Translations under genes and position numbers: made by a program | Notes under the pieces: model-generated | The model's input: only the letters and a program-made list of their open reading frames with translations | Databases searched by the model: none | Told to the model about the DNA's origin: nothing | IMG/VR virus record: IMGVR_UViG_3300034160_000001 | Span: 1 to 30,657 of that record | Origin: a virus | DNA: 30,657 nucleotides | Strand: one strand, 5' to 3' | Part shown: positions 7,554-30,639 of the stretch, piece by piece | Numbering within the stretch: position 1 is the first letter of the stretch | Layout of the letters: each line of letters begins with the position of its first letter

Positions 7554-7799
7554 ATGGCAGGATTACGCCGAAATGGCCGACCTCTCGATAATGTCTCCCT
7601 TAGTGGTAGAACAGGCAAGAGTGCGGCTCAACCTGTATTCTTCACTCCCGAGCAGATCGCTTGGCTGGAAGCTACCTTCCCTGAACCACTGATCACGCCG
7701 GAGACGACGATGGAGCATATCCAGAACGTAGCAGGCAAGCGAGAGCTGATCATGGCTATGAAGGCCCGTACACGGGCTATGGCGACGGTGCAGCTATGA
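7554..7799 (+). CDS. Small protein of 81 aa between RNAP and GNAT-like gene, unknown function
   Basis: ATG 7554 is preceded by GGTGGAGTATGATAA. The protein is basic at its N-terminus (MAGLRRNGRPLDNVSLSGRT), then has VFFTPEQIAWLEATFPEP and a helical C-terminal part (MEHIQNVAGKRELIMAMKAR). Small proteins in this position, just after the RNA polymerase, occur in phiKMV-like phages, but I cannot assign a function. The codons for DNVSLSG contain repeat copy 3, so a candidate promoter is embedded in coding sequence. The stop overlaps the next start (ATGA). Confidence 0.75.
   Translation: MAGLRRNGRPLDNVSLSGRTGKSAAQPVFFTPEQIAWLEATFPEPLITPETTMEHIQNVAGKRELIMAMKARTRAMATVQL
7588..7611 (+). promoter_or_regulatory. 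Candidate phage RNAP promoter, repeat copy 3
   Basis: ATAATGTCTCCCTTAGTGGT, one base from consensus, followed by AGAA. It lies 66 bases after copy 2, inside the start of the 81-aa gene. Two near-identical elements so close together suggest a doubled late promoter feeding the virion gene block. Confidence 0.55.
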
Positions 7800-8245
7800 G
7801 ACGCACTATCCGCTTAATGGCGGCGGGAGAAGCCTCCCGCATCGCTGTACTCGCACTTCCCAGCATCCTCGAATTCCCGGAGCTGCGGCAGTCCCAAGAT
7901 TACCGTGAGGACGTGCACCGCATCGCTTCAAGCCTTGCAGAGTTCGACCGCACAGAGATCGCTATCTACGACGGCGAGACCGTTGTGGGAGGCGCTACGG
8001 TTGTCTTAGACGACGACCAACACGTCGGCCCATGCCTGAGCCTGCAATGGCAGTACGTGCTCCCTGCGTACCGCTCAATGCACTTGGGGCGTCACTTTGT
8101 CCGCGAGCTGCTTCGGCAAGCTGGCTGGGCCGGTATCAAGAACGTGTCGTACTCGCACCGCACAGGTCCGGGTAAGTACACAATCACATACCGTGAGGTG
8201 AGTCCCAATGGGCAAAAAGGTAAAGAAGCTAGTCGGAAAAGTTAA
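7796..8245 (+). CDS. GNAT-family acetyltransferase-like protein (149 aa)
   Basis: The order of elements fits a GNAT fold: an N-terminal IRLMAAGEAS part, IAIYDGETVVGGATVVLDD as the central beta strands, LQWQYVLPAYRSMHLGRHF with a motif-A-like R93..H96-L-G98 pyrophosphate loop, then a helix RELLRQAGWAGIKNVSYSHR. Similar small GNAT-like proteins precede the portal gene in several T7-type and phiKMV-like phages. Whether it acetylates host proteins, or keeps only the fold, cannot be told. ATG 7796 overlaps the previous stop, so expression is probably coupled. It overlaps the following gene by 38 bases. Confidence 0.7.
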   Translation: MRRTIRLMAAGEASRIAVLALPSILEFPELRQSQDYREDVHRIASSLAEFDRTEIAIYDGETVVGGATVVLDDDQHVGPCLSLQWQYVLPAYRSMHLGRHFVRELLRQAGWAGIKNVSYSHRTGPGKYTITYREVSPNGQKGKEASRKS

Positions 8246-12761: not shown

Positions 12762-15190
12762 GCTATAAAGACTCGGCACATAAGAACCTCTTGATGGGCG
12801 TGTCCCAGCAAGCGCCGCAGGATAGGCTCCCGGGGCAACTCTCGGAGCAGATCAATATGATCTCAGACCCAGTGACCGGTTTGCGCCGGAGGCCGGGGAC
12901 AGAGTTCATCCGAGTACTACTGAGTGCGAACCTCGCAGGCACTGTCCGCCCGAAGATCTACCACACCGACATCAACAGCCGCTCTGTGGTGTTCGTTATC
13001 TTCCCAAGCGGCGGCGACCTGTACGTGTTCGACGACCAGACCGGCGTGCTCCTGCAATCATATCTTGCCCAGCCGTACCTACAAGCCAACACCCCTGCTG
13101 CCCTGCGGCTGGTGACGATGGGTGACGAGGTGTTCATTGCGAATACCGAGATCAAGCCTAGCAAGGCGCCCGCCACAGGTGGGAAGAACCCGGATCGCTT
13201 CGGATACTTCTACATCCCAGCTGGGCAGTACAGCAAGGAGTACGGGATCGTCGTCACGAATTCCCAGACCGGCGCCCAGTACAGCACGGCGTACATCACA
13301 CCAGACGGCAAGGGCGATAATGACGCCAAGCTGGCTTCGGTGCATTCGGTGGCGTGGCACCTGTACGGTAAGATCTATGGTCGCACGGCTGTGGTTGGCG
13401 ACCTGTCCCGCCCGGATGTTACCGCAGATCCTGCGATGGCGGCAGTGGCGGCGGCGACCGTGAACTCTGGCCTGAACCAAGGGTATGTGGGGATCGAGTT
13501 GAGTGCCGGGTGGTCGGTGACGATCACATCCAATACTGGCTCTGGCTTCCTGCGGACCTCAGGTGACATGACCATCAGATCCTCGGACGAACTGCCTGCA
13601 TCCCTGCCTACCACGGCAGCAGGTGTAGCCTTCATGGACGGTGTGATCGTAGCCACCGGCACAAGCGCCAACCTGACGTACTTCAGATGGGACCACGGCA
13701 CAGGCCGCTGGAAGGAGGACGCAGCATACGGCGACGGCACTGGCTTCCTGAACATGCCGCAGCGCCTGCTCTGGGACAGCACGGGCTGGACGTACGGGAC
13801 CCCTGCGTACCTTGCACGGCCTGCTGGCGACTCCGACTCAAACCCGGACTTCAACTTCCTGAAGTCGCCGGGGATCACCGGGCTCACCACGTTCCAAGGG
13901 CGGCTCGTCTTCCTGAGTAACGAGTACGCCTGCATGTCTGCGAGCAACGACCCACTGCGTTGGTACAAGCGGTCGGCTGCTGCGATTGCAGATGACGACC
14001 CGGTCGAGGTTGCGGCGCAGGGTACACTCACTGCACCATACCAGTACGGCATCACGTACAACAAGGATTTGATCCTGTTCAGCCGGAAGTACCAAGCGGT
14101 CATCCCCGGTGGCGGCGTGATCACACCACGGACGGCTAGCCTGTCTGTGACGACCACGTACGAAGCTGACATGAACTGCGTGCCGTTTGCGGCAGGCCGC
14201 TCCCTGTACTTCGCGGCACCCCGGTCTCTCGGGTACGTCGGCATCCACGAGATGTCGCCAAGCCCAAGCACCGACAGTCACTACGTGGCTGACGACGTGA
14301 CCAGCCACATCCCATCCTATATCGCAGGTCCAGCAGCGTATATCGCTGGTGCCAGTACATCTGGGTTCCTCGTCACAGGATCGGATACCGACACACCTGA
14401 GCTGCTCACCGTGTACCAGTACATCTGGGCCGGCGCAGAGAAGGTGCAGCAGGCGTGGCACCGCTGGGACCTGCACAAGCAGATCCTCGGTGTGTACTTC
14501 AGCGGTGACACCATGATGTGCATCGTGTACGGTGGCTTCCAAGTCATCCTAATGCGGTTGAATCTGCGAGCCCTCACAGGCGCAGCAGGCTTGCCCGCAC
14601 CACGGTACGACATGCAGCGCCCAGTCACCTGCACAGTAGCAGGACGCCTCACGGTGGATACTGGGTACTACGACACGATCAAGCACGACCCGCGAGTATA
14701 CCGGACTAGCGCTGGCGTTGGGCAGTACCTTGAACGGCGTGCGTTGACTGTCTCGTGGGATGGTGGCCCCACCATCGACTTCCTCGTTCCTGAGGCAGAG
14801 GTGGGGCAGCAGTACATCATCGGGCATGGCTACACTTCCGAGATGGAGCCGTCCCCGCCAGTCGTGCGGGATCACAACGATGTCCCCATCACCACGTCCC
14901 GCGCAACGCTGCGGGGCTACCGGGTGAGCTACAAGGACACCGGGGAGTTCCAGTACAAGATCGGTGACTCGGTTCGACCGGGGCAGTGGATCGACACAAC
15001 ACCGCTTCGACTGTTCAGCCGCAGGCTTGATGCCGGTCAACCGTTCGTGGACACCGCTGTGGTGCCTCTACCTGCACGGGTAGACATGCTCACGTCTTCG
15101 CTGGTGCTTCGAGCGGACGGGCCGTACGACATGAACATCAGTTCTATGGAGTACGGATACAAGAGCAACCTACGGTACAGGAGAGCATAA
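12758..15190 (+). CDS. Tail tubular protein B / tail nozzle (T7 gp12-like, 810 aa)
   Basis: The protein builds the tail nozzle. The N-terminus KNLLMGVSQQAPQDRLPGQ and SDPVTGLRRRPGTEFI match the T7 gp12 pattern (SIKNLKGGISQQPDILR ... GLQKRPP). Length is 810 aa against 794 in T7. ATG 12758 overlaps the previous stop and has GGAG 8 bases upstream; an ATG 21 bases earlier lies inside the tail tubular A gene and has no better site. The final residue codons overlap the next start (TAATG). Confidence 0.93.
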   Translation: MSYKDSAHKNLLMGVSQQAPQDRLPGQLSEQINMISDPVTGLRRRPGTEFIRVLLSANLAGTVRPKIYHTDINSRSVVFVIFPSGGDLYVFDDQTGVLLQSYLAQPYLQANTPAALRLVTMGDEVFIANTEIKPSKAPATGGKNPDRFGYFYIPAGQYSKEYGIVVTNSQTGAQYSTAYITPDGKGDNDAKLASVHSVAWHLYGKIYGRTAVVGDLSRPDVTADPAMAAVAAATVNSGLNQGYVGIELSAGWSVTITSNTGSGFLRTSGDMTIRSSDELPASLPTTAAGVAFMDGVIVATGTSANLTYFRWDHGTGRWKEDAAYGDGTGFLNMPQRLLWDSTGWTYGTPAYLARPAGDSDSNPDFNFLKSPGITGLTTFQGRLVFLSNEYACMSASNDPLRWYKRSAAAIADDDPVEVAAQGTLTAPYQYGITYNKDLILFSRKYQAVIPGGGVITPRTASLSVTTTYEADMNCVPFAAGRSLYFAAPRSLGYVGIHEMSPSPSTDSHYVADDVTSHIPSYIAGPAAYIAGASTSGFLVTGSDTDTPELLTVYQYIWAGAEKVQQAWHRWDLHKQILGVYFSGDTMMCIVYGGFQVILMRLNLRALTGAAGLPAPRYDMQRPVTCTVAGRLTVDTGYYDTIKHDPRVYRTSAGVGQYLERRALTVSWDGGPTIDFLVPEAEVGQQYIIGHGYTSEMEPSPPVVRDHNDVPITTSRATLRGYRVSYKDTGEFQYKIGDSVRPGQWIDTTPLRLFSRRLDAGQPFVDTAVVPLPARVDMLTSSLVLRADGPYDMNISSMEYGYKSNLRYRRA

Positions 15191-15726
15191 TGTTCTGGAT
15201 TCCCCTGTTGATCTCGGGGGCCATGTCTGCGGGTAAGACGGCCATCGACAACAAGGAGAAGATCAAGCAAGGTAAGCTGGAGAACAAGGCACGGGAGAAG
15301 GTAGACCTTCGGAACTTGGCGGATGCAGCTCAACAGGTAGGCAGCCTCGGCATGCTTGCAGGTGAGTACAGACGCCAAGCGACGGAGACCCGGATCTCAG
15401 CACAGCGCGAAGTTGGTAAAGCCCGAGGTACTGCGGAAGCGCAGGCTGGGGCTGCCGGCATCAAGGGCGCCAGTGTCGACGCCGTGTTCTTAGACCTCGA
15501 ACGAGAGTTCGGGGAGGCACAGGTTGCGATTGATCGAGACCTTGAGAACAAGCAGTACAACCTAGGCGACCAATTGCGGTCACTACAACTGTCCACGGCC
15601 AACGGCCTGTTGGGGCAGACCAACCCACGAGCTGGTCAGAGTAGCCCGCTGTTAGCAGGCGCCCTGACCGTAGGGAGTATGTATGCGAATGCGTACTTCC
15701 AGTTCGGAGCACAGAAAGGAGCATAA
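15190..15726 (+). CDS. Internal virion protein A (T7 gp14-like, 178 aa)
   Basis: It is the first of three genes between tail tubular B and the tail fibre, the place of the ejected core proteins that form the DNA channel across the cell envelope. The N-terminus FWIPLLISGAMSAGKTAIDN is hydrophobic, then long charged helices follow (QGKLENKAREKVDLRNLADAA, QREVGKARGTAEAQAGAAGI, VFLDLEREFGEAQVAIDRDL). T7 gp14 (196 aa) has the same plan and forms the outer-membrane pore. The start is coupled to the previous stop, with CAGGAGAGCA upstream. Confidence 0.85.
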   Translation: MFWIPLLISGAMSAGKTAIDNKEKIKQGKLENKAREKVDLRNLADAAQQVGSLGMLAGEYRRQATETRISAQREVGKARGTAEAQAGAAGIKGASVDAVFLDLEREFGEAQVAIDRDLENKQYNLGDQLRSLQLSTANGLLGQTNPRAGQSSPLLAGALTVGSMYANAYFQFGAQKGA

Positions 15727-15727
15727 G

Positions 15728-18388
15728 ATGGCTGAGCGTTCCTCACAGGAGCTTGGGCTGCGTGTCAACGTGACCGATAAGCAAGCGTATCAAGGCGGTG
15801 GTCGAGCGGCTGTGAAGGACTACCAAGTTCAGGATACCGGCAGCGGGGCATCACGAGTCCTTGCCGGTATCCTCGACGCGGCAGGCGGAGTCGCCCAGCG
15901 CAAATTCGAGTCCAACGTGCAAGAGCAGATCGTCAAGGGAAGCCGCGCACGTATGGCAGGGGAGGCTGAGGACGCTATCGAGTCTGACGCCTTCGCCGCC
16001 CCGTTCGTTCGTAACGGGTACAAACAGCAGGACTACCGGATCAAGCAGGCAGACTTCAGCCTGAAGCTGGGGCAGCTCGCTGAGAACGAGGGGCGGAAGC
16101 TAACCCCGGAGCAGTTCAGCAAGCGCATGGGTCAAGAGGCACAGGGCATCCTATCCTCGCTCGACGGGCTGCCGCCGGAGGCACATGTCCAAGCACTGAT
16201 GCAGCAGACCAAGGCTGAGGAGACCCTCATCACCAAGCAGGCGCAGAACCATGCCGGCTGGTTGATTGAGGAGGGCACCAAGCCCTTCCTTGCCCAAGGC
16301 AACAGCATCCTTGCCCGCCTGAGTTCGGCGCAGGCACAGGGCGACGACCTGACGTACCGGGCTGCCACGGAAGAGGCTGCGCTGTACCACTTGAACCTGC
16401 TGAACACGCCGGCCATCCCGGACGGCCAGCGCGAGAAGGTGGCTAAGCAGTTCTTGCTGGGCGCCCTCGACCTGAACCAGCGGAAGGTGTACGAGGACCT
16501 GCGTGATGCAGGTGGGCTCGACACCATGTCGTTCGATGATCGCAGGGAGTTGAACGGTGCGTACGAGCGTAGCCAAGCCAGCACCCGAGGCATCGAGAGT
16601 ATGGCTGATCTGGAGCGTGATTCGACATTCCAGTCAGGTGTGGCCTCCGGTGCTGCGGGGCTAGACGACGCTGTAAGCTACGCCAAGGACCGCGTAGCCC
16701 GTAAGCTGTGGGGGCCGGAACAGGCGCTGAGCTTTGTGCAGAATGCCCAGAAGGGCGTAGCGAACCGCCAGCTCATGGGCAACATGGTGACAGCCTTGGA
16801 AGAGGGTGACATCAACCAACTGAACACCCTCGGGTTCGACGTTGAGGAAGCCCTGACCAAGTACGACCAACTGGCCGCTGCTAATGGCGCCCCGGTGAGT
16901 CAGCGACTGGCGAACACCACCAAGCTCGGGCTGCGCCTTGGCGTGTTCCCGAAGAACTATGGTGCGGCTGTCAGTGCCTCGATCCGGGGCGTGCTGGCAA
17001 GTGACGGGGAAGTGCAGCCTGAGTTGGTGCAGACCCTGAACACGATTGCCGAGCAGGTCACACAGGCCGAGAAGTCGAACCCCGCAGCAGGTAACGTACT
17101 GCTGAGTGGCGTACCTGAGGAGCAGCGCGGCGCTCTGGCGTTCATGCTGCAACAGGCGAAGCTGGGCATCGAGCCGGGGCGTGCCTTGAAGGAGTACGGT
17201 GCACGGGACCTGTCTGCTACCCAGCAGGAGGACTTCCAGAAGTTCCAGAACAGCCAAGCATTCCAGAAGTCATTGGTCGGTAAAGTCGACTCGACGTTCT
17301 TGTCTGGTGCGTTCGGTCGGGTGGGGAACTTCATCACCGGCTCCAGCAACCTCAGCGACAACGAGGCTGTGCTCAGCATGTACCGCCGCGCTGTACAGGA
17401 CGAGGCATTCCAGCTGAGTGGCGACCGCCGCAACGCTGGCTTGCTGACCTCTCCAGATGGCCACGAGGCACTGCTGAACCTCGCTGCCGCCAACGTCTCC
17501 AGCCGCACCATTCAGGTCGGACAGGATGGTGTGCTGCTGGACCGGGAACGCGCCCCACTGATCCTGCCGCGAGGCACCAGCGCAGAGGAGGTGTTCGGTG
17601 CCCGCGACACCAAGAGCATTGGCCGTGCACTGGCTGAGAAGTACCCGCCTGATGTAAAGGGCGTGTTCGGCGACAAGTCCACCGTGGCCTTCGAGTACAC
17701 CCGCCAGAACGGCATGTACCGTATCCAGTACGATGCGAACGGCCAAGAGCTGGACCGCACCAAGATTGACCCTAAGGCTATCGGCACTGAGGTCAACCGC
17801 AAGAACGCCGAGCATGTGAATGCACAGCGGGCTGCGGATCTGGGTGCTGAGGTCGATGCAGGGAACGGCAACAAGCTGCTGATCGACGGCGGGAACGCCA
17901 GCGGCATGCAGCGACGTGGTGTGTACGACTGGCGCCGCGACATGCTCTCCCACGAGGGCTACCGCGACACCGTGTACAAAGACCGCAACGGACTGGCTGT
18001 AGGTGTTGGCCGGAACGTAACCGGCAAGCTCAAGGAAGGTGACACCATCAGCCGCGAGCAAGCTCAACAGTGGTTCGCTGAGGACACCGACAACGCACTG
18101 ATTGCCGGAAACCGGATCGCCAAGGACTTGGGCGTCACGAACCAGCAGGCTATTCTCGGTTTGGCTGGGGCTGCATTCCAGCTTGGCGAGGCGGGGCTGG
18201 GCGAGTTCACGAACACCAAGAAGGCGATCCAGATGAAAGACTGGGAAGGCTTCAAGAAGCAGGTCTACGATAGTGCGTGGGCTAAGCAGACACCTGCGCG
18301 CGTTAAGGCGTTCCTCGGGTACATGCAACCACACTTCACAGAACTGGCCACCGGGCCTGACTGGTATAGCGAGGCTACGGCCCAATAG
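15728..18388 (+). CDS. Internal virion protein B with C-terminal GH24 lysozyme domain (phiKMV gp36-like, 886 aa)
   Basis: The ejected core protein here carries the peptidoglycan-cutting domain. Most of the chain (1-~725) is helical and Gln/Ala-rich. From ~735 to the end it resembles phage-type lysozyme: MLSHEGYRDTVYKDRNGLAVGVGRNVTGK with E743 and D752 separated by eight residues as in T4 lysozyme E11/D20, then EQAQQWFAEDTDNAL and GLAGAAFQLGEAG. The position of T4 T26 seems occupied by A757. In phiKMV the homologous gp36 has a C-terminal lysozyme, so the domain probably opens the cell wall during DNA entry. ATG 15728 follows AAAGGAGCATAAG; an earlier in-frame ATG lies inside the previous gene. 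Confidence 0.88.
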   Translation: MAERSSQELGLRVNVTDKQAYQGGGRAAVKDYQVQDTGSGASRVLAGILDAAGGVAQRKFESNVQEQIVKGSRARMAGEAEDAIESDAFAAPFVRNGYKQQDYRIKQADFSLKLGQLAENEGRKLTPEQFSKRMGQEAQGILSSLDGLPPEAHVQALMQQTKAEETLITKQAQNHAGWLIEEGTKPFLAQGNSILARLSSAQAQGDDLTYRAATEEAALYHLNLLNTPAIPDGQREKVAKQFLLGALDLNQRKVYEDLRDAGGLDTMSFDDRRELNGAYERSQASTRGIESMADLERDSTFQSGVASGAAGLDDAVSYAKDRVARKLWGPEQALSFVQNAQKGVANRQLMGNMVTALEEGDINQLNTLGFDVEEALTKYDQLAAANGAPVSQRLANTTKLGLRLGVFPKNYGAAVSASIRGVLASDGEVQPELVQTLNTIAEQVTQAEKSNPAAGNVLLSGVPEEQRGALAFMLQQAKLGIEPGRALKEYGARDLSATQQEDFQKFQNSQAFQKSLVGKVDSTFLSGAFGRVGNFITGSSNLSDNEAVLSMYRRAVQDEAFQLSGDRRNAGLLTSPDGHEALLNLAAANVSSRTIQVGQDGVLLDRERAPLILPRGTSAEEVFGARDTKSIGRALAEKYPPDVKGVFGDKSTVAFEYTRQNGMYRIQYDANGQELDRTKIDPKAIGTEVNRKNAEHVNAQRAADLGAEVDAGNGNKLLIDGGNASGMQRRGVYDWRRDMLSHEGYRDTVYKDRNGLAVGVGRNVTGKLKEGDTISREQAQQWFAEDTDNALIAGNRIAKDLGVTNQQAILGLAGAAFQLGEAGLGEFTNTKKAIQMKDWEGFKKQVYDSAWAKQTPARVKAFLGYMQPHFTELATGPDWYSEATAQ

Positions 18389-18396
18389 GAGAAACA

Positions 18397-21300
18397 ATGG
18401 CAGAGGCAAAGGGCAAACTGACCCCTAAATTCCCGATGACCCCGACCGAGATCCTGACTGCCCAACAGGCAGCCACTCCGGTAGAAGGCGTCGGTATAGA
18501 CGCTATCGGCGGTCCTCAGGTACAGCGGCAGGTTGCCCTCGGCCAAGAGGCCAACACCGTCACTCTCGATGCAATCAAGGCTGAGCAGGAACGCTCGGCC
18601 ACGGATACCGCGACGGCGCTGCTGAGTGAGAGCACCGTCACCGGGCGTGCCTTGGATGAGGCATCCCAGTGGTTCGGTCCAGAACGTACTGAGATCGACC
18701 GCAGCTTCAACGCTGGAACGTACGCCCAGAAGCGATTCGCTGAACTGGGTATCCCGCAGAACGAGCGGTATGCCAAGGCTATCGCACAAGCCGCTGATGC
18801 TGACGATGCGGAGCAGATCATCTCCCGCATTAAACAGCACGAGGAGAACCAACGTGTCATTGAGCAGAATCCTTACTGGAACTTCGCCGCAACTATGGTC
18901 GACCCTGTGGCTCTGGCTATGGATGCTGTCACCTTCGGTACAGGGCGTGCCCTTCGACTTGGGCGTGCTGGCATGGCTGGCCTCGGAGGGGCTGGACAGG
19001 TCGCCTATGTCGGCGCGATGGACGCCACCGACATGGAAGTCGATACTAGCACGTACCTGCTTGCTGGTGCCCTCGGCGCCGGTATTGGCGCTGTGGTTGG
19101 TAAGGGTGCTGCCCGCACCGCTACAAAGCCCGTGCGACCTGGGCCGGTTGTCACTCCCGCTGCCGTGCCCGAGCCGACTGTTCCGGGAGCCATCCCAGCC
19201 GCAGTCACTCCAACCGTACCAGCTAAAGCCTTAGAGCTTGAGTCGATGGGCCGGCAGGTAGTGATCCCGAGCGTGAACCGCACAGCGGATACCTTCGAGG
19301 ATGCGCTGGTGGCGAACGCCCACGGCAAGACTGTGGCCGAGGCCGCCAGCTACATCAGCAAGCATGCCGACGTACCGCCTGCACTCCGGGTAGTTGCGGA
19401 CAAGGTGGCCGAGACCCTCGCCAAGATGGAGACTGCTGGACAGCGCTCGCTGTTCAAGGTCATCCGTGGTGGGGATCGTGGCGGCGAGCAGTACCTGAAA
19501 CCGGGTGTGGGCGGCCTGCACAGCACGTTCAAGGGCGAGACCCTTGTGTCTGTGCGTGGGGCTACAGCTGCCGGCCGGGTGGGGACTAACCCAATTACCA
19601 CGCTGCACGAGCTGACGCACGCTGCCACTGTGCAGATCATGCGCGGCATCAAGGATGGCAAGGTAGTGAACGCAGCCGCCACTCAAGCCATGCAGGAGAT
19701 CACTAGCGTCATGGGCTTGGTGCGTCAGCACTTGAAGACCAGCACGACCCTCAGCGACTTCGCCAAGGACCTCAAGGCTGGTCGCTCTAATGCGATGGCA
19801 AACGAGTACGAGATGGTGGCGTGGGGCCTGACTGACCCACGCATGCAGAAGCTGCTGAACGACGTGAAGCTGCCTAAGGGCACCCTCTGGGATGCCTTTG
19901 TAACTCAGGTCCGCTCCATTCTAGGCTTGGCGCCCGAGGCCGACACAGCTCTGTCTCAGGTACTCCAGTCGGCATCGAAGCTGCTGGACGAGGCACCGGG
20001 GTACACTGCCGAGATGGCATCGTGGGCCAACAAGGGTGCACCGACATCGGCACCACTGGTCGAGGCTTCGCTGGAGACAGCCAAGCAGTCTGCCAAGGAG
20101 GCCGTGGGCTTCGTGAATCGCTTCTTCGCTGAAGCTGACCTGCTGGGACCTAACCCAGAAGCACGGGCACTCATGGGCCGCTTGATTGACGACCCTGTAC
20201 GCCGGGAAGGCTTCAGCACCAACGACAACGCCGCCAGCTACCTCCGCCGCTACCGTAACGAGTTCGACGGCTTCGTCAAGCAGTACGACGACGCGGTTGC
20301 CGAGGTCATGGGCAAGCGGGGTATTGGCTGGAAGGATCGTGCCCTGAACACCAAGAAGGGTGTCTCTGGCCGGGATGCTGTGAACGACGAGGTGGCGACT
20401 GAGCTGCTGCGCCGTAACCGCGAGTGGACGAGTCAGGGCTTCGTGAGCAACAAAGCGGACCTCGACCCGGACATCAAGCGCATTGCCGACATCTCCGACG
20501 ACATCCACGGGCGTATGGGGAAGCGTGCACAGGAAGCTGGCGTACGGGGCTTCGAGGAGTTCCAGCCACATCCGGGCTACTTCCACCGCTCGTGGAACTA
20601 CTCCAAGATGCTTGAGTTGGATAACGTCCAACCGGGCTTGGCTGCCAAGGTGATTGGCGAGGCGGTGCATCGTGGCCTCAAGGGGCTGGATGCGGATGAC
20701 GCACTCACCATTGCCAAGGCTATCGTGCAGCGAGCTAAGGACCGTGCCTCTGGCATCCGGTCCGAGTTCATGGGTGCGCTGGGTGTAGCTGATACCACGT
20801 ACATCCGCGAGGCTCTGGAGTCCGCTGGTGTGAGCGAAGTCAAGCGCAGCAGCATCATGGGCAAGATCGAGCAGAAGGCATCGGACCAAGGCACCGTGAA
20901 GTACGGTAAGAGCCGCCTGAATCTGGACATGGACGTGGAGCTGAATATCGGCGGGCAGGTGTACCGTGCTGCTGATCTGGTGGACCGCGACGTGGACCGC
21001 TTGCTGGAGAACTACGCTGGCTCCATCTCAGGCCGCTCTGCACTGGCCCGCGCCGGTATGCCGGGTGATAGTGAGATCGAGGCATTCATCCGCGACTATA
21101 CCAAGACCGTGGCCCACATGGGTGTGGCGAAGACTGAAGAACTCACCGGCCAACTGCGCGGCGTGTTCGGGGACTTCACCGGGAACGTACCCAAGGAGCA
21201 CCAGCTCGGACCTATCGCACAACGTGCGGCAGGATTGACTAGTGCCACCATGCTCGGGTTCTCGGGTGTGTACCAGCTAGCAGAGGTTGCCACGATCATG

Positions 21301-22332
21301 CACCGGCAGGGTGTCGCCGCTACACTGGGCGCCATGCTGGACTCTGCTGGGGGTGGCTTCCGTAAGCTGCTGGGCGATGCGAACAAGGACGCCGACTTGG
21401 CTGCGGAGATGCAGACTGTGCTCGGTCTTGACCTTGCACGGGATGTCCGCATGAAGCCGTGGAAGCGTCAGTTCGACACATTCCTCAGCTCTAGCGACAC
21501 CACGTTCGACCGGCTGCTGCACAGCGGCAAGCAGGCCACGCCTATCTTGAATGGCATGAAGTTCGTGCACGGCATCCAATCCAGGATGAATGCGAACCTG
21601 ACGCTGAACAAGGTGGCTCGGGCCGCTGCCGGTGACGAGGATGCCATCGCTGTCCTGAAGGCGTACGGCAAGGATGTGGACTGGGAGACCCTGCTGCCAA
21701 GGGTTCGCGGTTATGTCTCCCTTAGTGGTAAGAACGCCACAAGCATGAACTGGGGCCAATGGGCCAAAGCAGATGTTGACACGGTGATGAACACCGCCCT
21801 CCGTATCATGGACGACTCGTTGCTGTACGGACGTGTAGGTCAGAACGCCGGGTACGCTCGTTCCCCTGTTGGGCAGATGCTCGGCCAGTTCCGCAGCTTC
21901 GTGGCATTCGCACATAACAAGCTCCTCCGGGGTACTTTCGAGAACCAAGGGGTGCTGGGAGTCGCATCGTTACTCGCACTGCAATACCCGCTCACGTCAA
22001 TGATGATGGGCGTCAAGGCTGCGATCAACGGCAAGCTCGATCTCTCTGAGGATGGGCTGAAGAAGATGGCAACCGACGGGATCAGCTATACTGCTGGTCT
22101 TGGCTTCACCGCTGATATGTGGGGCATTGTGTCCGGTAACGGTCGCATGTCTGCACCTGTCTTCGGCTTGGCTGAGAGCACTGGTGAAGTGTTCCGAGGC
22201 GTCAAAGGATTGTTCGGTGACGACCAACGTGCAGCAGCAGGCGATCTCGCCTCTGGTGCCGCAGGTCTAGTCCCGTTCGTGAACGTGTTCCCAGCATCGA
22301 AGTTGCTCATCGAGAGCATCAAAGGAGAGTAA
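18397..22332 (+). CDS. Internal virion protein C (T7 gp16 / phiKMV gp37-like, 1311 aa) with HExxH zincin motif
   Basis: The largest gene, in the T7 gp16 position (1318 aa). It should be ejected and line the channel that pulls DNA into the cell. An Ala/Gly-rich hydrophobic region spans ~165-235. At residues 404-408, HELTH in TTLHELTHAATVQIMRG is a zinc-protease HExxH motif, and NEYEMVAWGLTDPRMQ at ~469-484 supplies a plausible third ligand glutamate (E470 or E472), as in zincin domains found in large phage polyvalent proteins. The lysozyme domain found at the N-terminus of T7 gp16 is not seen and lies in the preceding protein instead. AGGAGAAACA precedes ATG 18397. Repeat copy 4 is embedded near the 3' end. 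Confidence 0.88.
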   Translation: MAEAKGKLTPKFPMTPTEILTAQQAATPVEGVGIDAIGGPQVQRQVALGQEANTVTLDAIKAEQERSATDTATALLSESTVTGRALDEASQWFGPERTEIDRSFNAGTYAQKRFAELGIPQNERYAKAIAQAADADDAEQIISRIKQHEENQRVIEQNPYWNFAATMVDPVALAMDAVTFGTGRALRLGRAGMAGLGGAGQVAYVGAMDATDMEVDTSTYLLAGALGAGIGAVVGKGAARTATKPVRPGPVVTPAAVPEPTVPGAIPAAVTPTVPAKALELESMGRQVVIPSVNRTADTFEDALVANAHGKTVAEAASYISKHADVPPALRVVADKVAETLAKMETAGQRSLFKVIRGGDRGGEQYLKPGVGGLHSTFKGETLVSVRGATAAGRVGTNPITTLHELTHAATVQIMRGIKDGKVVNAAATQAMQEITSVMGLVRQHLKTSTTLSDFAKDLKAGRSNAMANEYEMVAWGLTDPRMQKLLNDVKLPKGTLWDAFVTQVRSILGLAPEADTALSQVLQSASKLLDEAPGYTAEMASWANKGAPTSAPLVEASLETAKQSAKEAVGFVNRFFAEADLLGPNPEARALMGRLIDDPVRREGFSTNDNAASYLRRYRNEFDGFVKQYDDAVAEVMGKRGIGWKDRALNTKKGVSGRDAVNDEVATELLRRNREWTSQGFVSNKADLDPDIKRIADISDDIHGRMGKRAQEAGVRGFEEFQPHPGYFHRSWNYSKMLELDNVQPGLAAKVIGEAVHRGLKGLDADDALTIAKAIVQRAKDRASGIRSEFMGALGVADTTYIREALESAGVSEVKRSSIMGKIEQKASDQGTVKYGKSRLNLDMDVELNIGGQVYRAADLVDRDVDRLLENYAGSISGRSALARAGMPGDSEIEAFIRDYTKTVAHMGVAKTEELTGQLRGVFGDFTGNVPKEHQLGPIAQRAAGLTSATMLGFSGVYQLAEVATIMHRQGVAATLGAMLDSAGGGFRKLLGDANKDADLAAEMQTVLGLDLARDVRMKPWKRQFDTFLSSSDTTFDRLLHSGKQATPILNGMKFVHGIQSRMNANLTLNKVARAAAGDEDAIAVLKAYGKDVDWETLLPRVRGYVSLSGKNATSMNWGQWAKADVDTVMNTALRIMDDSLLYGRVGQNAGYARSPVGQMLGQFRSFVAFAHNKLLRGTFENQGVLGVASLLALQYPLTSMMMGVKAAINGKLDLSEDGLKKMATDGISYTAGLGFTADMWGIVSGNGRMSAPVFGLAESTGEVFRGVKGLFGDDQRAAAGDLASGAAGLVPFVNVFPASKLLIESIKGE
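21709..21733 (+). promoter_or_regulatory. Candidate phage RNAP promoter, repeat copy 4
   Basis: TTATGTCTCCCTTAGTGGT followed by AAGAA, within the codons for GYVSLSGKN of internal virion protein C. It lies about 600 bases before the tail fibre gene and would boost tail fibre, terminase and lysis genes. The codons used are forced by the element, since it matches copies 2, 3 and 5, which lie in other contexts. Confidence 0.55.
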
Positions 22333-27730: not shown

Positions 27731-28036
27731 ATGGCTACTTTGAAGCAATTGCACGACGCACGTAACGCCGGCCTGAACTTGGCCAAGGCCACCCAAGACT
27801 TTGCGCAGGTAGACATCCTGAGCGCTAACAAGGACTCCCCTGCTGTAGTAGCTGCCGTCAAGGTAGCAGCTGACGCTGCTATCGCCGCTGCGGCTGCTGT
27901 AGGCGGCGCCGCGAGTGGTAGCACTGCGCTCGTGACCTCCGGCCTGTTGGCGGGCATCACTGCGACTGGCACCGGCACCAAGGTGACGTTGACCGTAGCG
28001 AATGGCGCCATCTCGGCTGTCACCCTGTCCGTATAA
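27731..28036 (+). CDS. Small Ala-rich protein of 101 aa, paralogue of the gene at 28581
   Basis: GGAGGATTGAA precedes ATG 27731. The N-terminus LKQLHDARNAGLNLAKATQDFAQ is a helix shared with the 148-aa protein two genes downstream (LHRARNAALRLAQATQPYAQ). An Ala-rich stretch follows, and the end KVTLTVANGAISAVTLSV is also similar to the end of that protein. No family is recognised. Its position after lysis and terminase genes, in a strong-ribosome-site cluster, fits a minor virion or tail-tip protein expressed late. Confidence 0.75.
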   Translation: MATLKQLHDARNAGLNLAKATQDFAQVDILSANKDSPAVVAAVKVAADAAIAAAAAVGGAASGSTALVTSGLLAGITATGTGTKVTLTVANGAISAVTLSV

Positions 28037-28045
28037 GGAGGTGCT

Positions 28046-28570
28046 ATGAGTTTCTGGGGATTCCTATCCAACCGAAGTGAGCAGGGTATGGTATGGCGGG
28101 GCATGCAGTTGATCTGCGGCCTCTCCCGTGGCCTGTTCGAGAAGCGACAGTTCCGTGCGTACCGGGAGTTCACTACCTCCACTGTGATCAAGTTCGTGGC
28201 CACGAAGCCGTTCCTCCTGACGTACCAGTCCCTCTGGACCGGGCAGGGTGCGGCTCGTGTTGTGATCAGCACTGGTGGTACGGAGGGTGGCACGTTCACA
28301 GCCATCCCAACCAAGTTCTGCAAGTACCTGCTGGACGGTGCTGTCGCCGGCAACACTACTGTGAGTGCAGGCGGTACGCATACTGGCGGCAGTGAGCGCG
28401 AGGTCCTGCGCTCTGATAGCAGCACGGCAGGTGGTGGGCAGGGCAACATGAACACGCTAGGTGGTGAGCGTATGCTCCCAGCGGGGACGTACTACATGGA
28501 CATCACCGTCACAGGCACCACCTCGGGCATGTACGCCGTGGAGTGGGAGGAACTCGATACCCTGTTCTAA
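28046..28570 (+). CDS. Protein of 174 aa, possible minor virion protein
   Basis: ATAAGGAGGTGCT before ATG 28046 is one of the strongest ribosome sites in the window, suggesting abundant product. The N-terminal ~50 residues are basic (RGMQLICGLSRGLFEKRQF). The rest is rich in Gly, Thr and beta-type segments (RVVISTGGTEGGTFTAIPT, SAGGTHTGGSERE, AGTYYMDITVTGTTSGMYAV), consistent with a beta-sandwich such as a decoration or receptor-binding domain. No homologue recognised. It stands between two paralogous genes. Confidence 0.75.
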   Translation: MSFWGFLSNRSEQGMVWRGMQLICGLSRGLFEKRQFRAYREFTTSTVIKFVATKPFLLTYQSLWTGQGAARVVISTGGTEGGTFTAIPTKFCKYLLDGAVAGNTTVSAGGTHTGGSEREVLRSDSSTAGGGQGNMNTLGGERMLPAGTYYMDITVTGTTSGMYAVEWEELDTLF

Positions 28571-28580
28571 GGAGATCCAC

Positions 28581-29027
28581 ATGGCTACACCAGCTGAGCT
28601 TCATCGCGCACGGAACGCTGCGCTGAGATTGGCACAAGCAACACAGCCGTATGCGCAGGGAGACCTGCCTATGGCTAGTATCGTCCCTGTCGTGCGGGGT
28701 AGCGTTAAGGAGACTGCGGACGAGGCCATCCTCGCCGCTATCGCCATCGGTGGGGAGGGTCCGGCTTGTCCGGGCCCTGAGCCTATGCCACAGACCCGCG
28801 CTATGATCGACCACATGGACTACACGCAAGTGATGGACTACCGGGGTGTGAACGCGTACCAAGCAATCGGGAACCTGATCGTGGAGAACAACGCGCTGTT
28901 GGCAGTAACCCTGCCTGCTAACCACACTGTCCTGAAGTCCGGTGCCCGCTTGCAACTGAACAACGTGCAGTACACGTTCACCGTCGTGAACGGACAGGTC
29001 ACTGCAATCCAAGCTATACCATTCTAA
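28581..29027 (+). CDS. Protein of 148 aa, paralogue of the gene at 27731
   Basis: TAAGGAGATCCAC precedes ATG 28581, so this start is taken over an earlier in-frame ATG inside the previous gene. The first ~60 residues align with the 101-aa protein (ELHRARNAALRLAQATQPYA). An inserted ~50-residue part with TRAMIDHMDYTQVMDYRGVN follows, then a beta-rich C-terminus (ARLQLNNVQYTFTVVNGQVT) like the end of the paralogue. Unknown function; the pattern suggests duplication followed by insertion in minor structural genes. Confidence 0.75.
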   Translation: MATPAELHRARNAALRLAQATQPYAQGDLPMASIVPVVRGSVKETADEAILAAIAIGGEGPACPGPEPMPQTRAMIDHMDYTQVMDYRGVNAYQAIGNLIVENNALLAVTLPANHTVLKSGARLQLNNVQYTFTVVNGQVTAIQAIPF

Positions 29028-30056: not shown

Positions 30057-30096
30057 CCGATAGCCCTTTGTTTGCTTGGTGTTTGGCTCATATGTC

Positions 30097-30120
30097 ATTA
30101 TGTCTCCCTTAGTGGCAGAG
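30097..30120 (+). promoter_or_regulatory. Candidate phage RNAP promoter, repeat copy 5
   Basis: ATTATGTCTCCCTTAGTGG followed by CAGAG, 19 bases before ATG 30139 of the HNH gene. It matches copies 2 to 4 over 19 bases. In + orientation it would drive the endonuclease gene and anything to its right. Confidence 0.55.
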
Positions 30121-30138
30121 ATACCTATAAGGGGAAGT

Positions 30139-30639
30139 ATGAAGGCGATACCTATGGATTGGCTCAGGGCTAACCTGACCATTGATACCACTATGCCTAG
30201 TGGCTTACGGTGGCTCATCACTAACCGAGGCAGACGGCAGCCTATGGCCGGATCTCAGAAGCCTAATGGCTATTGGGACGTTGGGGTAAAGGGACAGGGT
30301 AACTACCTAGCGCATAGGCTTGTATGGGCTCTCCGGTATGGCCGTGATCCGGGGAATGCGCAGATAGATCACAGGGATAGGGATAAACGGAATAACCACC
30401 CATCCAACCTACGCTTAGCCACCGTCACACAGAATGCGCATAACACCGATGCGCTGCCTAGCAACACTACCGGTGTTAAGGGGCTCACTACGGTTAACGG
30501 CGGGTACTGGCAAGCGCAGATAGTCATAGCGGGCGTACGGCACCGTAAGGGGTTCGGTAAGGGGGAGGCTGGCAAGGCTCTAGCTATAGAGTGGCTAGAT
30601 AACCTACGCACAGCGCACGTTGGAGAGTTCGCAAACTAG
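30139..30639 (+). CDS. HNH homing-type endonuclease with AP2 DNA-binding domain (166 aa)
   Basis: AP2-HNH endonucleases cut phage DNA and spread their own gene. The HNH core is NYLAHRLVWALRYGRDPGNA (H59), AQIDHRDRDKRNNHPSNLRL (D77, H78, N86, N90), ATVTQNAHN. The AP2 domain follows (~106-155): LPSNTTGVKGLTTVNGGYWQ and IVIAGVRHRKGFGKGEAGKA. ATG 30139 is preferred because TAAGGGGAAGT precedes it; a longer frame from 30076 would run through the promoter-like repeat. Codon use differs from the late genes, with many CTA, ATA and AGG/GGG codons, suggesting recent acquisition. Free-standing genes of this kind are frequent at the edges of T7-type genomes. Confidence 0.9.
   Translation: MKAIPMDWLRANLTIDTTMPSGLRWLITNRGRRQPMAGSQKPNGYWDVGVKGQGNYLAHRLVWALRYGRDPGNAQIDHRDRDKRNNHPSNLRLATVTQNAHNTDALPSNTTGVKGLTTVNGGYWQAQIVIAGVRHRKGFGKGEAGKALAIEWLDNLRTAHVGEFAN

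Follow-up and report, generated by a model that had tools for sequence, protein, structure and literature searches.

An HExxH motif (HELTH) in an internal virion protein of a phage raises the question of whether it marks a genuine zinc metallopeptidase and, if so, what such an enzyme would do in a protein that is ejected into the host. The window, i.e., the whole 30,657-base IMG/VR virus record analyzed here, has a phiKMV-like layout: it encodes a single-subunit RNA polymerase, head-tail functions, three internal proteins, a tail fiber/spike, a terminase, and lysis functions.

The ejection protein and its genomic setting

The motif lies in a 1311-aa protein encoded on the plus strand (18397..22332), which belongs to the phiKMV gp37 class of internal virion (tetrameric ejection) proteins (phrog_342, E = 7e-213) and has solved relatives 9sfn_G, 8vb2_A, and 23sg_S. 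Gene order and phrog_342 homology place it third in the internal-protein operon, with a small 178-aa internal virion protein of the gp35/gp14 class (15190..15726, plus strand; phrog_805, E = 6e-39) and a 901-aa internal virion protein (15683..18388, plus strand; phrog_2083, E = 1e-232) upstream. The 901-aa protein contains a C-terminal phage lysozyme domain (17948-18289, plus strand; PF00959, E = 2.4e-7). The 1311-aa protein is matched by 559 records; its nearest named relative is that of Pseudomonas phage phiNV3 (83.7%), followed by those of the phiKMV/LUZ19 type (~60%). The original prediction called it an ejected core protein, which is right by homology because gp37-class protein is packaged in phiKMV virions (PMC3765740). 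T7 gp16 is of the same core/ejection protein class and has the same gene order, but it carries an N-terminal lytic transglycosylase (PMC8954989), in keeping with the transglycosylase mentioned in the original prediction, and none was found in the 1311-aa protein. The C-terminal hub region, residues 573-1311 (20113..22332, plus strand), is conserved in relatives with and without the cassette described below. A 19-residue stretch at residues 221-239 (19057..19113, plus strand), the most hydrophobic of the protein with a borderline Kyte-Doolittle score of 1.52, could be a membrane segment.

Other open reading frames in the window are noted here in their own right. A stand-alone reading frame between the RNA polymerase and portal genes (7796-8245) resembles GNAT acetyltransferases by eye, and a similar HHpred hit was reported for gp29 of Burkholderia phage JG068 (PMC3765740). 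The neighboring reading frames at 27731-28036 and 28461-29027 have a related segment in common (MATLKQLHDARNAGLNLAKATQ.. / MATPAELHRARNAALRLAQATQ..) and are likely paralogs. Two reading frames, 2318-2743 and 30076-30639, look like HNH-type endonucleases by eye, one of them lying close to where the contig ends on the right.

Conservation of the candidate zinc site

HELTH occupies residues 404-408 (19606..19620, plus strand) and NEYEMVAWG residues 469-477, both as originally placed, the interval 19606-19848 corresponding to residues 404-484. By analogy with known enzymes of this type, H404 and H408 would be zinc ligands and E405 the general base. A nearly invariant T411 follows the motif in the alignments (19627..19629, plus strand), extending it to HExxHAxT, and the invariant E472 (19810..19812, plus strand), in the context N..E[MLF], is the candidate third ligand. 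An HExxH motif appears in only 1.2% of shuffles of the 1311-aa protein. A chance motif on a functionless structural helix is refuted by invariance across subfamilies, and its probability is negligible. Across an alignment of 13 members whose identity falls as low as 15-21%, only 8 of 224 positions of the window protein are invariant, and H404, E405, H408, and E472 make up half of them (hypergeometric probability ~7e-7).

The motif-pattern scan is biased for HExxH and was used only for E472 and for the multiple sequence alignment; in this set, selected on the HExxH part only, E472 is conserved in 77 of 77 sequences. For an unbiased view of conservation, relatives were gathered by their C-terminal hub and not by the motif. 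In this set, E472 is present in all 50 distinct domains, and HExxH is intact in every domain that is not cut by a contig end, one 5'-truncated copy being without only the first two residues. A profile made from sequences with the motif was still what identified the domain-positive members of the hub-recruited set, but in the ~1000-aa negatives the block is missing altogether and not the motif alone. Loss of the histidines in homologs was looked for and none was found: the motif is gone only where the whole cassette is gone, and the four residues persist in all domain-bearing relatives. The third ligand had been placed at E470 or E472; E472 holds in both sets, and E470, which is conserved in neither, was rejected.

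Predicted fold and homologs of the domain

An AlphaFold2 (AF2) model of residues 296-547 (19282..20037, plus strand), computed from a 38-sequence alignment of fetched loci, has a pLDDT of 89.6 and a pTM of 0.85. It contains helices, a strand at model residues 56-61, strands at 78-83 and 86-92, a long helix bearing HELTH, and a later conserved helix (model residues 175-184) with E472 near its start. The model thus has the elements of the zincin core: a helix at the N-terminal side, three strands, and a pair of helices toward the C-terminus. The possibility that HELTH sits on a helix that has no third ligand was tested by this structure prediction and is not what the model shows: the motif helix follows a three-stranded sheet and the glutamate lies on a downstream helix, a zincin-type arrangement.

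A profile search with the domain recovered 9sfn, 23sg, and 8vb2, and then the N4 virion RNA polymerase (vRNAP; 9pnr, E = 3e-9), whose HELVHAST...NEFMAWG was aligned by hmmsearch to the HELTH and NEYEMVAWG motifs; phrog_2206 was matched at E = 2e-11 (11 of 13 members). In a Foldseek search of the PDB with the model, all hits had E > 0.1, and the N4 vRNAP stood out with a probability of 0.80; anthrax LF entries were among the low hits. Fold matches among predicted viral structures are phiKMV-like core proteins, polyvalent-type proteins, and virion RNA polymerases. Delivered proteins in which the zincin accompanies further effector domains are that of L178, with GNAT (see below), and the DarB-like antirestriction protein of Parlo. 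A search of bacterial genomes returned only 2 metagenomic loci, and the domain is therefore essentially viral at this search sensitivity. No named Pfam or NCBIfam peptidase family scored above its curated cut-off, and the sub-threshold matches (such as Tox-MPTase4, SprT-like, and DUF3267) were rejected as names for the domain.

The N4 vRNAP domain, known as C1 or MPTase (PDB 9PNR, Schitoviridae), has HELVH and NEFMAWG and is also packaged in the capsid and injected, but it belongs to a different phage family and, within a 3500-aa protein, is joined to an RNA polymerase rather than to a T7 gp16-like hub. Its HExxH was noted in the N4 structure paper (PMC12633501). Iyer et al. 2017 described zincin-like MPTases as the commonest domain of polyvalent injected proteins, the N4 vRNAP included, and proposed auto-processing or host targeting as their function (PMC5512222). 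Like the domain described here, polyvalent MPTases have HExxH and a glutamate on a later helix, a three-strand core, and a habit of mixing with effector domains in injected proteins. Homology to the MPTase/C1 domain of N4 vRNAP therefore places the domain in an already known family. Taken together, the conserved site, the AF2 topology, and this homology make it almost certain that the residues hold an intact zincin-family domain, in support of the zinc metallopeptidase originally proposed from the motif and its context.

What has not been recognized is the setting. PhiKMV/LUZ19 gp37 (Krylovirinae; 9sfn_G has the same 1337-aa length) is homologous along its full length (~60% identity; the score to 9sfn_G is 1644 bits) and carries HEAVH and the glutamate of NVKELVAWG at the equivalent positions, although the domain itself is only ~46% identical; the gp37 records examined read "internal virion protein with endolysin domain" and annotate no protease. 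The phiM1 tetrameric ejection protein gp48 (PDB 8VB2) is homologous in both protein and domain (HEAAH...THEF), but the same region was published as an endolysin/exotransglycosidase-like insertion in the hub (PMC11440229). The domain-bearing proteins of these phages are labeled "endolysin" or "exotransglycosylase" in PHROG 342 and many GenBank records. The text of Iyer et al. 2017 mentions neither phiKMV nor internal virion or T7-like ejection proteins (PMC5512222), and in the open-access literature we found no paper naming a protease in gp37-class proteins. The zincin domain is thus of a known kind in an unrecognized and mislabeled setting, and the pattern of domain exchange described below is the more novel aspect.

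A discrete cassette between conserved flanks

The domain and a preceding Pro/Ala-rich linker occupy residues ~236-572 (19102..20112, plus strand), a segment that MR16, Pseudomonas phage HHBS14_1, and phages like them lack as a unit. Aligned with MR16 and HHBS14_1, the 1311-aa protein matches up to residues ~226-235 and resumes at 573-576, with a short remnant between and collinear flanks; in each of these phages the neighboring protein retains its lysozyme. The hydrophobic stretch at 221-239 ends at the cassette boundary, so that the slot comes directly after it. Among 72 complete reading frames of the hub-recruited set, the zincin domain is present in 49 and absent from 23, counts that do not represent independent events because many of the 72 are close relatives.

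The domain has also moved. In locus L138 (1911-5840) the usual site is empty and the zincin (residues ~592-895) lies between the halves of an HHBS14_1-like hub, at a second site equivalent to residues ~905-925 of the window protein; the same zincin domain sequence was found on a truncated contig from another metagenome (L136). In L178, of the Klebsiella phage myPSH1235 type, ~197 residues (~220-416) containing a GNAT domain (PF00583, above cut-off) precede the zincin and are missing from the 97%-identical L184. GNAT also directly precedes the zincin in L237 and L238, and this arrangement is found in a few Klebsiella, Escherichia, and Shigella phages (myPSH1235, KpV48, ZH5, SFN6B), while most Klebsiella records among the matches listed cover no more than the zincin-side part of the search sequence. 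On sequence grounds, the zincin is a discrete cassette at ~236-572, missing cleanly in close relatives, relocated in one lineage, and sharing its slot with GNAT in some Klebsiella-type phages.

Other domains fill the same slot. In L139 (1764-2312) a domain of ~186 aa occupies it, where the slot of HHBS14_1 is empty and the two are 90-91% identical on both sides; this domain has no phage match. It also occurs in L208, and its resemblance to ADP-ribosyltransferases is motif-like. The slot of L147 (residues ~252-700) contains HEYGVH, an HExxxH motif, followed by an ADP-ribosyltransferase-like stretch, and matches the C-terminal part of phrog_873 "endolysin" (positions 803-1249). Neither the L139 nor the L147 slot domain has a PDB match, a single-sequence AF2 model of the ADP-ribosyltransferase-like domain was poor (pLDDT 49.5), and assignment of these domains as ADP-ribosyltransferases, based on motif-like similarity, was dropped. 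After the zincin of L151, residues ~630-670 (VPFLTLDGAKVTGHEGRHRADVL) are ParB/DdrB-like by eye only.

We lean slightly toward a more general reading, in which ejection protein 3 of phiKMV-like and related Autographiviridae would have a payload slot (~236/572) and a second site at ~905-925 where host-acting enzymes are swapped whole. The proposed payloads, held with the same narrow preference, are the HExxH zincin, the GNAT acetyltransferase, probably the HExxxH zincin, and the ADP-ribosyltransferase-like and ParB-like domains. If host-acting enzymes are exchanged in this way, the ejectosome would double as an effector delivery device. The exchange of peptidoglycan-hydrolase domains among ejection proteins has been reviewed previously (PMC8954989).

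The cassette also evolves faster than its surroundings. Compared with phiNV3, its dN is 0.28-0.36 versus 0.05-0.09 for the rest of the protein, and yet it is constrained, with a dN/dS below 0.3. Relaxed constraint would also fit the higher rate.

Alternative functions of the domain

The main rival of a host-directed role is auto-processing, in which the zincin, either within the capsid or once ejected, would cut its own polypeptide or the core proteins that accompany it, releasing domains or permitting disassembly. Such a function was suggested for several polyvalent proteins by Iyer et al. 2017, who cite the processing of P1 DdrB (PMC5512222). Pseudomonas phage Draal03 (L020 1708-5515) and Xanthomonas phage S3 (L111 2003-6908) have two reading frames in place of one gene, an N-terminal one with the zincin and one for the hub, so the two halves can exist as separate chains. 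However, many relatives work without the cassette and keep the rest of the protein, the zincin of L138 is at an unrelated position, and the N4 vRNAP with its homologous domain is packaged unprocessed (PMC5512222) and showed no evidence of degradation when purified (PMC12633501). We consider auto-processing unlikely, at perhaps one third the weight of an effector role, which is favored over virion processing because of the cassette-like distribution.

Two further readings would deny the domain proteolytic activity. It could be a metal-binding structural zincin fold or could act like an HExxH oxygenase, an activity brought up for C1 of N4 by authors who point out that HExxH is also found in radical SAM/alphaKG-HExxH enzymes (PMC12633501); as far as we found, protease activity has been reported for no close member. 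The strict invariance of the general-base and third-ligand glutamates is nevertheless that expected of gluzincin catalysis, and the AF2 topology fits a zincin, making a non-proteolytic role improbable. Still less credible is a peptidoglycan-degrading domain (endolysin/exotransglycosylase), as given by the PHROG 342 and GenBank labels and by the phiM1 paper for the equivalent region Asp268-Asp528, with BLASTP/DALI support (PMC11440229), and as might be expected from homology to the T7 gp16 class with its N-terminal transglycosylase. Pfam contains no lysozyme/SLT family matching the 1311-aa protein even at E = 10, and none was found in phiKMV gp37; the region instead has HExxH...E and homology to N4 vRNAP C1, and the neighboring protein already has a lysozyme, also in the cassette-less phages. 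The endolysin/transglycosylase assignment was rejected for this lack of family support.

Proposed role and significance

We propose that residues ~236-572 are a swappable effector cassette with one glutamate-type zincin (HExxH plus E472) of the polyvalent/N4 vRNAP kind. As a portion of the tetrameric core protein it would be packed into the capsid, travel through the tail with the ejectosome, and refold in the host periplasm or cytoplasm, where it would bind Zn2+ through H404, H408, and E472 and cleave one or more host proteins, favoring early infection. Sequence and model show the intact conserved active site, the zincin-type predicted topology, the homology to the N4 MPTase, and the cassette behavior; packaging is known from papers on phiKMV homologs, and we infer ejection, metal binding, proteolysis, and a host target for the 1311-aa protein. 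That the cassette is an active protease is very probable. We assign a probability of about 0.6 to its being an injected and swappable host-directed effector. Phages can do without the domain, move it, and exchange it, and it evolves quickly while its active site stays untouched; a role in the injection machine itself is therefore unlikely.

Hundreds of phages carry this protein class, mostly labeled endolysin/transglycosylase or hypothetical, and should the cassette prove to be a protease that enters the cell right at the onset of infection, current labels are wrong. Small lytic phages, some of them in phage therapy research, would then own a delivered effector whose target, whether an envelope protein, a protease, or a defense protein, is directly searchable, and near-identical natural pairs with and without the slot domain make the question testable. 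The cassette pattern suggests an interchangeable anti-host weapon rather than a part of the injection machine.
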